Positions 24,044 to 26,843 of a stretch of 34,566 bases of DNA are shown here, piece by piece (the first letter of the stretch is position 1; each line of letters begins with the position of its first letter). The stretch is from assembly GCA_026391945.1 (NCBI GenBank), contig JAPLDA010000076.1, forward strand, positions 77,633 through 112,198, given 5' to 3'. The position numbers and the translations under genes were made by a program. The DNA is from Bacteroidota bacterium. Its GTDB lineage: Bacteria; Bacteroidota; Bacteroidia; AKYH767-A; 2013-40CM-41-45. The notes beneath the pieces are model-generated. The model saw only the letters and a list, made by a program, of their open reading frames with translations, was not told the DNA's origin and ran no database searches.

Positions 24044-24877
24044 TCAGTCAAGAGCGTGGAAAGCAAGCAGCGGAATGTGTGTGTGAAAAGCCATGCGTTT
24101 GGTTTTGCTGCGGTTAAAAATTTTCTGGAAAAAAGTCCGGTGATGCATCGACATCACCAACATGTCGGCCCTGATTTCATCAAGGTATAAATTCAATCCG
24201 TCGATCACTTCCCTGTTTTCGAGAAGTTTGAACGACACTTTATCATATTTGCTGTCGGCAACCATACGTTCTTTGAAACTTTCAATTGCGTCAAATTCAT
24301 AAGCCTTGTCAATTTCTCCGTTGGAGATGTGAAGCAGGATCACTTCTGCGCCCAGGTTCCGGGCGATCTCCACCACCTTTTCCACATTTTCAAAATCGTT
24401 GTACGCATAATCCGTTGCGAAAACAATTTTGTTGATTCCTTTGAAGGTGGCGTTCTCCGGGATGGCAAGCACGGGGCAGGAGACATCTTCCATGACGGCC
24501 GCTGTTATGCTGCCGATCAATACTTCCCGCAACCCGCTTGCTCCCTGTGTACCCATGATCACCAGGTCTGTTTTTTTATCCGCTGAAATGCGGACGATTT
24601 CATCTTCCGCATACCCCGCGCTTACCATGGTTTCGATTTCCATGCCCGGGTATTCACTTTCAAATTTTTCTTTCAGTTTTTTAATTCCCTTCTTCGCAGT
24701 CTTTTCAAGTTCTTCATCGGAAGGCATCACCACCGGCACATCGGAAGCAAATACCGGTAATACATACGAATGAAACAGGACTATTTTTGAATTCAATTTC
24801 CTGTTCATCTCAAGTGCAAAATGAATGGCATTGTCGGAGTTCTTTGAGAAGTCCGTGGGGATGAGAATTGTTTTCAT
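24044..24877 (-). CDS. tandem-domain universal stress protein
   Basis: A 277-residue cytoplasmic protein made of two Usp domains (~1-142 and ~148-277). The first has the complete ATP-binding pattern G-2x-G-9x-G-S: GTQG, nine residues, then GS (residues ~108-123). The second lacks it, having MSMHHRTFFQKIFNRS at the equivalent place. A pairing of one nucleotide-binding and one degenerate domain is usual in Bacteroidota Usps. These proteins accumulate in growth arrest, oxygen limitation and oxidative stress; the molecular action is not settled. It starts 19 bases after the baeRF-type gene, hence one operon, read from a promoter that carries a Crp/Fnr-like box. A bidirectional terminator follows. 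Confidence 0.9.
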   Translation of the reverse strand: MKTILIPTDFSKNSDNAIHFALEMNRKLNSKIVLFHSYVLPVFASDVPVVMPSDEELEKTAKKGIKKLKEKFESEYPGMEIETMVSAGYAEDEIVRISADKKTDLVIMGTQGASGLREVLIGSITAAVMEDVSCPVLAIPENATFKGINKIVFATDYAYNDFENVEKVVEIARNLGAEVILLHISNGEIDKAYEFDAIESFKERMVADSKYDKVSFKLLENREVIDGLNLYLDEIRADMLVMSMHHRTFFQKIFNRSKTKRMAFHTHIPLLAFHALD

Positions 24878-24896: not shown

Positions 24897-25985
24897 TTAA
24901 TACCGGGTTATTAAAGCGATGCGCTGGAAGTCGGGAAGCATTCCGTTCTCCACAAAAATGATGTCGCCGTTGTTGAGGAGTACATGTTCGAGAACATCGT
25001 CAACGGCATCGGCGATGAGATTCAAACCTGTAACAGGAACGTCATCAATGATGATGTTGTAACTGTCGTCGCCGAAACGTGCCGGCTGGCGGTAATCTTT
25101 TTCCACGACAAGCAGGCGACCTCGCGCTTCCGTGGCTGCTTTCCAGACTTCTGCAATTCCTGCCGCATACGTGTCTTTGCTCACCGCTGTCGCCAGTTCA
25201 ACCAGCGCATGATCCTGTTCTTTTTTCTCAATCGAATTCAATACCGGGCGAATGGCGGCAAGGAGTTCATTCGACGGGCTATGGTCGAAATTTCCCTCCA
25301 CGTATCCCAGGATATTTTTTTTGTTCATGGTATGCTGCCTGAACAAACCCATCAGTTTGATGTCGCCCATGAGGATCACCGGTAAATTGGTGTGCCTGAT
25401 TTCCCGTTCAAGAATTTCATCGATGAAATGCAAAAAGTTCCGGATGTTTTTTTCTTCGTATGCTTTCGTGTCAAGATAATCCCAGCCGGGAAAGGAATGT
25501 TCGTTCGTGACATCTTTTATATTTTCCGGCATGTCGGGCAATGGCGTGGTGACGAGTGAATTTCCGCTCCCGAGAAAAGTTTTTACACGGTTCTGTGAAA
25601 TGGTAGTAAGCAGGTAACTTTTATTTTTTTTAGCTGAATAAATCAGGTCCCTGATTTCAAACGACTCATCCACGATTACTTTTTCAGAAACTGCAAATGG
25701 AAGATGGATGACCCGTTCATCGTTCGACGAAACATAAATGGCAATGCCTTGTGCAAGGTGATTAAAGTTGATGTTGTTCACGACGCGGTGGAGTTTATCC
25801 ATCAGCAACTCTGTTTTCTGTTTGCTGTATTTTTGTTTCAGCTGATGCTCTGCATTTTTCAAAAGTGAAATCAGCCTTTCCCGGTCGGCTTTGAATTTCG
25901 GATACTGCGGGTTGGTGGAAAGGATAATGGAGATAGCAGGAAAAGCCTTCTGGCCAACCATGCTCTGTTTACTGATTGTCGTCAT
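24897..25985 (-). CDS. bacterial eRF1-like protein (baeRF family; Balon-type ribosome hibernation factor candidate)
   Basis: A 362-residue cytoplasmic protein that I recognise as a member of the bacterial eRF1/Pelota-like (baeRF) group, to which the ribosome hibernation factor Balon belongs. Visible marks: an N-terminal region like eRF1 domain 1 (ISIILSTNPQYPKFKADR), a central RNase H-like segment (~130-260; NRVKTFLGSGNSLV; HTNLPVILMGD), and a C-terminal L7Ae-like segment with AVDDVLEHVLLNNGDIIFVENG and the ending RIALITRY. There is no eukaryotic GGQ or NIKS motif. Balon-type proteins occupy the ribosomal A site in dormant or cold-shocked cells. The pairing with a Usp gene and a divergent osmC fits stress use. 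Ribosome binding by this protein is inference; other baeRF subfamilies have unknown roles. Confidence 0.75.
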   Translation of the reverse strand: MTTISKQSMVGQKAFPAISIILSTNPQYPKFKADRERLISLLKNAEHQLKQKYSKQKTELLMDKLHRVVNNINFNHLAQGIAIYVSSNDERVIHLPFAVSEKVIVDESFEIRDLIYSAKKNKSYLLTTISQNRVKTFLGSGNSLVTTPLPDMPENIKDVTNEHSFPGWDYLDTKAYEEKNIRNFLHFIDEILEREIRHTNLPVILMGDIKLMGLFRQHTMNKKNILGYVEGNFDHSPSNELLAAIRPVLNSIEKKEQDHALVELATAVSKDTYAAGIAEVWKAATEARGRLLVVEKDYRQPARFGDDSYNIIIDDVPVTGLNLIADAVDDVLEHVLLNNGDIIFVENGMLPDFQRIALITRY

Positions 25986-26051: not shown

Positions 26052-26097
26052 TAAAAATAAGTGCGAGGCTTAGTGGCTTAAATGACATACATCATTT
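26052..26097 (-). promoter_or_regulatory. promoter with Crp/Fnr-like box for the baeRF-Usp operon
   Basis: On the minus strand, the palindrome AAATGATGTATGTCATTT (26097-26080; ATGA-N6-TCAT core at 26095-26082) runs into TTTA (26082-26079). A 19-base spacer and TATTTTTA (26059-26052, consensus TAnnTTTG) follow. The operon start codon is ~67 bases further on. The core TGA-N6-TCA has the spacing of Crp/Fnr-family sites. The box and promoter are seen; the regulator is inferred. Confidence 0.55.
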
Positions 26098-26317
26098 CTA
26101 AATATGACGATGATCAGAGAAGAAAAAGCAGCATGATTCAAATTCATGAAAGTTATGAATGGCCTGCTGAAAATATATTTTTTCGTACCGGAACCTGTTC
26201 GAAGTTTTCCGGAAGATGTATTCGAAAATGTACGTTTTGGATCAAGGCGTTTTCCTTCGCTGAAATTTTTCAGGATACATTGATGACATAAATTAAGAGC
26301 GCTGAAGTCTGGTCAGC
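26098..26317. other. non-coding space between the two divergent stress promoters
   Basis: With its flanks, this belongs to the 405-base gap 25986-26390. A 69-codon frame at 26082-26291 exists, but it overlaps the regulatory box and has no recognisable family. Nothing else is supported here apart from a CAAC-N4-GTTG inverted repeat at 26002-26013 in the leader of the baeRF operon. Confidence 0.4.
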
Positions 26318-26361
26318 ATGATTGCTGTCATTTCGCAGGATGTGCTGCCAGAATACTTTTG
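26318..26361 (+). promoter_or_regulatory. promoter with Crp/Fnr-like box for the osmC-like gene
   Basis: ATGATTGCTGTCAT (26318-26331, ATGA-N6-TCAT) runs into TTTC (26331-26334). A 19-base spacer and a perfect -7 element TACTTTTG (26354-26361) follow, 29 bases before the ATG at 26391. The box centre lies 29.5 bases before the -7 element, exactly as in the divergent promoter. That places it near -43, a class II activator position. Confidence 0.6.
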
Positions 26362-26390: not shown

Positions 26391-26843
26391 ATGAGCGAAG
26401 TGCATGATTACGTCGTTGGATTAACTTGGGACAAAGAACGCATTGGAACTCTTTCAGCTCCGGGCCTCGATGATCAGATTGTCGTGGCAACGCCGCCGCA
26501 GTTTCCAAAAGGAGTGGAAGGTATCTGGTCGCCGGAACATTTGTTCGTATCGGCCATCACCAGTTGTTTCATGACCACATTTCTTTCCATTGCCGAGAAC
26601 TCAAAACTTCCGTTTACATCTTTTGAATGCAAAGGAAGCGGCAGTCTTGAAACCGTGAATGGAAAATACATGGTGAGTGAAGTAACTGTTTTTCCCAAAG
26701 TCGTAATCGCCGATGCAAAGGATCGTGACCGTACCGAACGCATCCTTCAGAAAACAGAAGCCAACTGCCTCATCTCAAATTCCGTTAAGTCAGCGATCAT
26801 CATGAAAACGGAGGTGATCGTGGATGAAAATGCTATCGTTTGA
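26391..26843 (+). CDS. OsmC/Ohr-family peroxiredoxin-like protein
   Basis: A 150-residue cytoplasmic protein of the OsmC superfamily, which reduces organic hydroperoxides through two cysteines. Cys59 lies in AITSCFMTTF and Cys126 in EANCLISNS, the two conserved redox positions. PEHLFVSAITSC is the typical start of the long central helix. The sequence also fits the broader OsmC-like group (YhfA, SACOL1771), so the precise substrate is open. ATG 26391 was chosen because the upstream in-frame extension (from a TTG at 26322) contains the promoter. It diverges from the baeRF-Usp operon and shares the same promoter design. The stop codon lies in one arm of an inverted repeat that encloses a terminator shared with dnaN. 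Confidence 0.88.
   Translation: MSEVHDYVVGLTWDKERIGTLSAPGLDDQIVVATPPQFPKGVEGIWSPEHLFVSAITSCFMTTFLSIAENSKLPFTSFECKGSGSLETVNGKYMVSEVTVFPKVVIADAKDRDRTERILQKTEANCLISNSVKSAIIMKTEVIVDENAIV

Follow-up and report, generated by a model that had tools for sequence, protein, structure and literature searches.

The intergenic region at positions 26052-26361 of the window, the 34,566-nt stretch of Bacteroidota DNA analysed here, would contain two divergent, activator-dependent sigma-A promoters, one reading into a baeRF-usp gene pair and the other into an osmC-like gene. In the model that we propose, a dimeric activator with a CRP/FNR fold would bind TGAY-N4-RTCA boxes whose centres lie at -41.5, with a further one at -63.5 in the baeRF promoter, and would recruit RNA polymerase to TAnnTTTR -7 elements that lack a usable -33 element. 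The activator is most likely a response regulator in which a receiver domain is fused to a CRP-type output (receiver-CRP), encoded on contig C48 of the same genome and phosphorylated by a neighbouring PAS histidine kinase, whose signal is probably low oxygen or NO. A factor resembling the ribosome-hibernation protein Balon, its universal stress protein (Usp) partner and OsmC would in this way join the regulon of the high-affinity cbb3 oxidase and of denitrification and anaerobic genes. Taken as a whole, that the C48 receiver-CRP activates both divergent promoters within a low-oxygen-type regulon is a reading we consider moderately probable. The boxes, their spacing and conservation, the content of the regulon and the clustering of sites around regulator genes were established by computation.

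Boxes and -7 elements between baeRF and osmC

The genes and promoter elements concerned are as follows, with positions counted in the window.

24044..24877, minus strand: two-domain universal stress protein (Pfam Usp, two stretches), co-directional with baeRF
24897..25985, minus strand: baeRF gene (Pfam baeRF_family3), homologue of the ribosome-hibernation factor Balon by sequence likeness
26052..26059, minus strand: putative -7 element of the baeRF promoter, TATTTTTA; transcription start predicted at ~26047 from the published placement of TAnnTTTG
26082..26095, minus strand: proximal CRP/FNR-type box of the baeRF-usp promoter, ATGATGTATGTCAT; found at the same position in seven relatives
26104..26117, minus strand: distal box of the baeRF-usp promoter, CTGATCATCGTCAT; TGA-N6-TCA at an equal 22-bp spacing in six relatives
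26318..26331, plus strand: CRP/FNR-type box of the osmC promoter, ATGATTGCTGTCAT; exact counterpart 5' of the osmC orthologue in L085
26354..26361, plus strand: putative -7 element of the osmC promoter, TACTTTTG; transcription start predicted at ~26366, 25 nt 5' of the ATG
26391..26843, plus strand: OsmC-family protein, with its ATG at 26391; an upstream TTG frame would begin inside the box

Two ATGA-N6-TCAT boxes had been claimed at 26082-26095 and 26318-26331, and both are present at these coordinates, each with a -7-like element that starts exactly 22 nt past it; from the centre of the proximal baeRF box to its -7 element, the distance is 29.5 nt. The original prediction counted one box on the baeRF side and had missed the second one at 26104-26117 (minus strand), exactly 22 bp further upstream. 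Its TTTA/TTTC -33 elements did not hold up either, as these consist of just the T of TCAT and non-conserved bases: a T is kept after TCA in 59 of 77 family sites, and the next three positions carry 0.03-0.17 bit each.

Mapping in Flavobacterium psychrophilum has placed TAnnTTTG at -12 to -5 (PMC9723704). With the start-site geometry borrowed from flavobacteria, box centres are predicted at -41.5 in both promoters, and at -63.5 for the distal box of baeRF. For CRP/FNR promoters, -41.5 is the class II position, and a tandem at -41.5/-63.5 is an activator layout in which a second dimer sits upstream. The earlier assignment of Crp/Fnr-type boxes at a class II position to both promoters is supported by the exact box-to-7 distance, the position itself being predicted from the published geometry. 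As the proximal box overlaps the site where a -33 element would sit, it could be argued that the bound protein represses instead. However, neither the box nor the sequence behind it holds a conserved -33 motif, the tandem has the layout of an activator, and the downstream genes described below are normally induced at low oxygen, which makes repression very improbable. Between the two promoters, at 26260-26273, lies another near-perfect palindrome, CTGAAATTTTTCAG, that departs from TGAY-N4-RTCA and lacks a -7 element at the right distance.

Spacing across genomes and conservation in relatives

On its own, ATGA-N6-TCAT is not enriched, with 2 copies in the window against 1.41 expected and 215 in the 3.1-Mb genome, and the case therefore rests on the composite of box and -7 element, and on its conservation. 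The combination ATGAN6TCATT-N19..24-TANNTTT occurs three times genome-wide, two of these being both sites of 26052-26361. The strict composite TGAYN4RTCA-N23-TAnnTTTR is found 12 times in the source genome (twice in 26052-26361) and once with a control spacer of 28. For true versus control spacing, the counts are 77 versus 4 in 11 family genomes and 257 versus 36 in 42 genomes of the order, where several of the 36 control matches are one conserved coding sequence. These genome-wide figures derive from pattern searches with altered spacing (spacer 28) as the control, a reversed-pattern control having been dropped because it was judged biased in composition. Furthermore, the T after TCA that most of the 77 family sites keep is present in only 11 of 28 control sites, near-duplicates excluded (p=0.0008), and since this T is not part of the pattern, its enrichment at the true sites cannot be caused by the search. 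The spacing between box and core promoter is conserved and non-random.

The promoters of baeRF orthologues from ten further genomes of the order were compared, and were aligned by anchoring on the -7 element, a MAFFT alignment of three having misplaced the boxes on account of unequal ends. Two boxes exactly 22 bp apart precede baeRF in G002, G003, G006, G007, G008 and G010 as well as in the source genome, and in all seven of these tandem-box promoters the proximal box lies 22 nt 5' of TAnnTTTR, with that of G008 being degenerate (TTGTCCGCAGTCAT). In G015, a member of another family, the proximal box and -7 element only are present, and no such promoter was found within 330 bp upstream of baeRF in G009, G011 and G017. 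Where the spacing between box and -7 element is kept, the spacer sequences have diverged.

Could the composite arrangement nonetheless be a coincidence, picked from a long window? The bare box does occur at its expected frequency, and the pattern was defined post hoc. Yet seven relatives keep the promoter with diverged spacers, the enrichment in 42 genomes is specific to the spacing, and the targets are functionally coherent, so that coincidence is hardly credible as an explanation for the arrangement, and for the baeRF promoter it is already refuted.

Conservation of the boxes in relatives had been named as a test from the outset, and the baeRF side stood up to it in seven relatives; on the osmC side, one exact case was found. 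Among 80 osmC orthologue loci, the exact composite is present only in L085 (Chitinophagaceae), and L080 has a box with a weak -7 element. In G002 and G008, which hold the nearest osmC orthologues in the family, the gene lies in a thioredoxin-rhodanese operon without the box, and the source genome retains this operon on contig C65, without osmC. From these arrangements, it seems that osmC moved next to baeRF, out of the thioredoxin-rhodanese operon. A promoter in front of osmC is plausible given the exact fit of its box and -7 element, with weaker support from conservation than on the baeRF side. The conserved thioredoxin-rhodanese operon (L121, L122, L141) also carries a Crp-like gene.

We also considered ATGACN4GTCAT as a marker for the regulon, but dropped it, as four of its nine sites belong to a cccATGACTTCAGTCATggg repeat near gene ends. 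The palindrome CCCATGACTTCAGTCATGGG recurs near gene ends on several contigs of the source genome (L114:2168 on C23, L115:404 on C25, L116:2189 on C28 and L117:2235 on C110), and resembles the box without being a promoter site; it is either a dispersed repeat or terminator-like.

Genes downstream of the composite sites

A genome-wide search for the box and -7 element at fixed spacing, suggested together with the original prediction, gave the 12 composites, with low-oxygen-type targets among the genes behind them. Genes directly 3' of these sites in the source genome include those for Hsp20, a Cu-type ATPase, a POR subunit, and FixS/ccoS with ccoNO behind it, as well as three dehydrogenase genes, for a short-chain enzyme, one of the Glu/Leu type and a fused 3-hydroxyacyl-CoA dehydrogenase. 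Genes behind the composites of relatives include ccoN, ccoS, norC, hemN, Hsp20, Usp, baeRF and that of the PAS kinase itself, of which norC, hemN and ccoN were recognised from sequence starts rather than by profile search. With cbb3 oxidase, norC, hemN, Hsp20 and Usp genes behind them, the composite promoters point to a microoxic regulon, and the target set is that of an FNR/FixK-type low-oxygen regulator. The presence of the cbb3 oxidase, norC and hemN behind these promoters also makes oxygen or NO, as had been put forward, a sensible signal, and with a box and -7 element in both promoters, the coordinated activation of baeRF-Usp and osmC by one type of regulator is plausible. Box, 22-bp tandem spacing and 23-nt gap to the -7 element together would form a cis-regulatory code for a low-oxygen-type regulon of Bacteroidota, an earlier description of which our literature search did not find for this phylum.

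The adjacency of baeRF and Usp genes is conserved in L211, L214 and L217. Over its full length, the baeRF protein matches the Balon chain 8rd8_B of Psychrobacter (E 8e-30), and like Balon it lacks GGQ and NIKS, whereas its score of 257.5 bits against NF052287 (ribosome hibernation factor) is under the NCBIfam equivalog cut-off of 330. Being aeRF1-like, free of GGQ/NIKS and homologous end to end, it can be classed as a Balon homologue, a likeness known here from sequence alone. Mycobacterial Balon homologues are reported to be induced by hypoxia (PMC10901736). Ribosome hibernation would be the expected outcome of baeRF induction, and the model predicts joint induction of a Balon-type hibernation factor and the cbb3 oxidase.

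Candidate regulators and known systems

So which protein binds these boxes? The source genome encodes eight proteins with an HTH_Crp_2 domain: two receiver-CRP fusions (C48, C32), three with an N-terminal Cys cluster (C35, C87, C19) and three others. We infer the identity of the binding protein, its signal, and that it activates rather than represses. The C48 receiver-CRP is favoured on account of the clustering of boxes around its genes, its near-invariant helix, the tracking of box number with its presence, and the lack of a close C35-type orthologue in G009 and G010. It is encoded next to its putative kinase on C48:

L136:6798-7856: receiver-CRP response regulator, adjoining the PAS histidine kinase
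L136:7925-9913: membrane PAS-PAS histidine kinase, neighbour of the receiver-CRP gene

The C48 gene lies between two Usp genes, and tandem box pairs with 22-bp spacing are located upstream of these genes. Beside the kinase/receiver-CRP pair of the source genome, no strict N23 composite was found, the tandem boxes there having a gap of 24 or no clear -7 element. Near receiver-CRP genes (22 loci), box density reaches 0.46/kb versus 0.14/kb elsewhere, boxes are spaced by 22 in 28 of 36 pairs, the box-to-7 gap is 23 in 28 of 44 cases, and most loci examined have tandem or composite sites near the receiver-CRP gene. The cluster of kinase, receiver-CRP, Usp and Hsp20 genes recurs, with baeRF-Usp within ~15 kb in G002, G006 and G009, where kinase, receiver-CRP, Usp and baeRF-Usp together span no more than ~20 kb. 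As the likeliest regulator, a simple Crp/Fnr sensor is not supported here, as the boxes instead cluster around the pair of histidine kinase and receiver-CRP; for the same reason, phosphorylation is more probable as the signal than the bound nucleotide that had also been considered.

Within the family, receiver-CRP identity is 73-79%, compared to ~46-55% for baeRF, and the recognition helix is almost invariant. Among 247 genomes of the class, composite sites number 6.2 per genome with receiver-CRP present versus 2.65 with it absent (p=6.5e-10), and in 24 families holding both states the count goes up in 19 and down in 4 (p=0.0026), with phylogeny and genome size not fully corrected in these tests. 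Several members of the order from other families have a receiver-CRP gene and few composite sites.

The receiver residues EDN, CDIMMP, FLTAK and TKPF are conserved, or nearly so, in 26 aligned receiver-CRP orthologues, and the acidic pair, phospho-acceptor Asp, Thr and Lys thus identified mark the protein by its sequence as a two-component response regulator. Its N-terminus is formed by the receiver domain and has no Cys cluster, which sets it apart from FNR proper. In CRP, cAMP is contacted by E72, R82 and S83; the residues aligned to these in receiver-CRP (HMMER alignment to CRP chains) are Y, K and E, which would not fit a cAMP receptor protein. With the phosphorylation residues of the receiver intact and the cAMP-contact residues changed, phosphorylation is the likely input. 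In the kinase, the first of the PAS domains can be aligned to those that hold heme in FixL and DosP, and 18 of 19 kinases have a His where FixL and DosP carry the heme ligand. Many PAS domains have such a His, and the distal-pocket Arg of FixL is not conserved, so that heme is only a suggestion. Our literature search returned no functional account of such a fusion of receiver domain and CRP-type output, and none of the solved structures that were matched spans both domains.

Alternatively, the boxes may be bound mainly by a classical Cys-cluster FNR of the C35, C19 or C87 type, sensing oxygen through Fe-S, with receiver-CRP having other targets. Such an assignment would suit the three Cys-cluster proteins of the source genome and a regulon content typical of FNR. 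Moreover, the recognition helix of C35 has E..TR, two boxes and TACTTTTG lie upstream of its gene, the presence of C35-type proteins correlates with composite number (10.2 versus 3.8), and C87-type proteins are widespread in the family, with cross-binding being possible. However, G009 and G010 have no close C35-type orthologue, while G010 keeps the baeRF promoter and G009 other composites; the C87-type helix, EQVSK, ends in a K that replaces the DNA-contacting R; and it is the receiver-CRP genes around which the boxes cluster. On balance, a classical FNR as the main binder is unlikely, but deserves to be taken seriously. The C35 FNR-like gene (within L113:1-8253) encodes an N-terminal CX2CX4CX5C and has its upstream tandem boxes 23 bp apart; behind it come cytochrome c genes and two Fe-S/NrfD modules.

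Both kinds of protein might also share the boxes, thereby integrating phosphorylation and direct oxygen sensing, with C35 as a target within the network. The boxes in front of the C35 gene would agree with this, and composite counts look additive (per genome, 11.6 with both, 5.3 with receiver-CRP only, 6.0 with FNR only and 2.5 with neither), but phylogeny and genome size confound a correlation made at the level of genomes, and we regard shared binding as rather improbable.

Control by the phosphorylated receiver-CRP would resemble known systems in part. With the class II promoters of E. coli FNR and CRP, it has in common TGA-N6-TCA centred at -41.5 (predicted here), the CRP fold with its helix-turn-helix, and FNR-like targets. 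In contrast to these, the Bacteroidota -7 element replaces the -10 element, a second box is fixed 22 bp upstream, and the regulator that we favour carries a receiver domain, lacks an N-terminal Cys cluster, and does not keep the cAMP contacts of CRP. The FixL-FixJ-FixK system of rhizobia likewise combines a PAS histidine kinase and a phosphorylated regulator (predicted here) with FixK-like sites and cbb3 targets, whereas in our case receiver and CRP/FixK-like output are fused, which removes the transcription step from FixJ to fixK, and heme is no more than suggested.

The mycobacterial DosS/DosR regulon is reported to include the Balon homologue Rv2629 and Usp genes (PMC10901736; PMC2682197). 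The two systems would share the placing of a Balon homologue and Usp proteins under two-component control of the hypoxia type, for Bacteroidota as a proposal made from sequence. DosR is a regulator of the NarL/LuxR type with other boxes, whereas the output in Bacteroidota would be of the CRP type, and the likeness would be convergent if confirmed. We offer, as a tentative idea that may well turn out otherwise, that a one-protein equivalent of FixJ-FixK, a receiver-CRP driven by a PAS kinase and acting on tandem boxes 22 bp apart, couples low-oxygen respiration to Balon-type hibernation, convergent with mycobacterial DosR. If true, a link between hypoxia and hibernation would have evolved in two or more phyla under unrelated regulators, DosR in mycobacteria and receiver-CRP here.

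On contig C32 (L137:1538-2683 and L137:4185-4439), the second receiver-CRP is 59% identical to that of C48, has the recognition helix ETISR as in FNR/FixK, and is located near a similar histidine kinase fragment at the contig end. G030, a genome without receiver-CRP, has one composite site and encodes a classical Cys-type FNR-like protein (L247:680-1390) whose recognition helix, GTATETTIRLLSEFK, closely resembles the one in receiver-CRP, which suggests that receiver-CRP may have arisen from a Cys-type FNR like this one.
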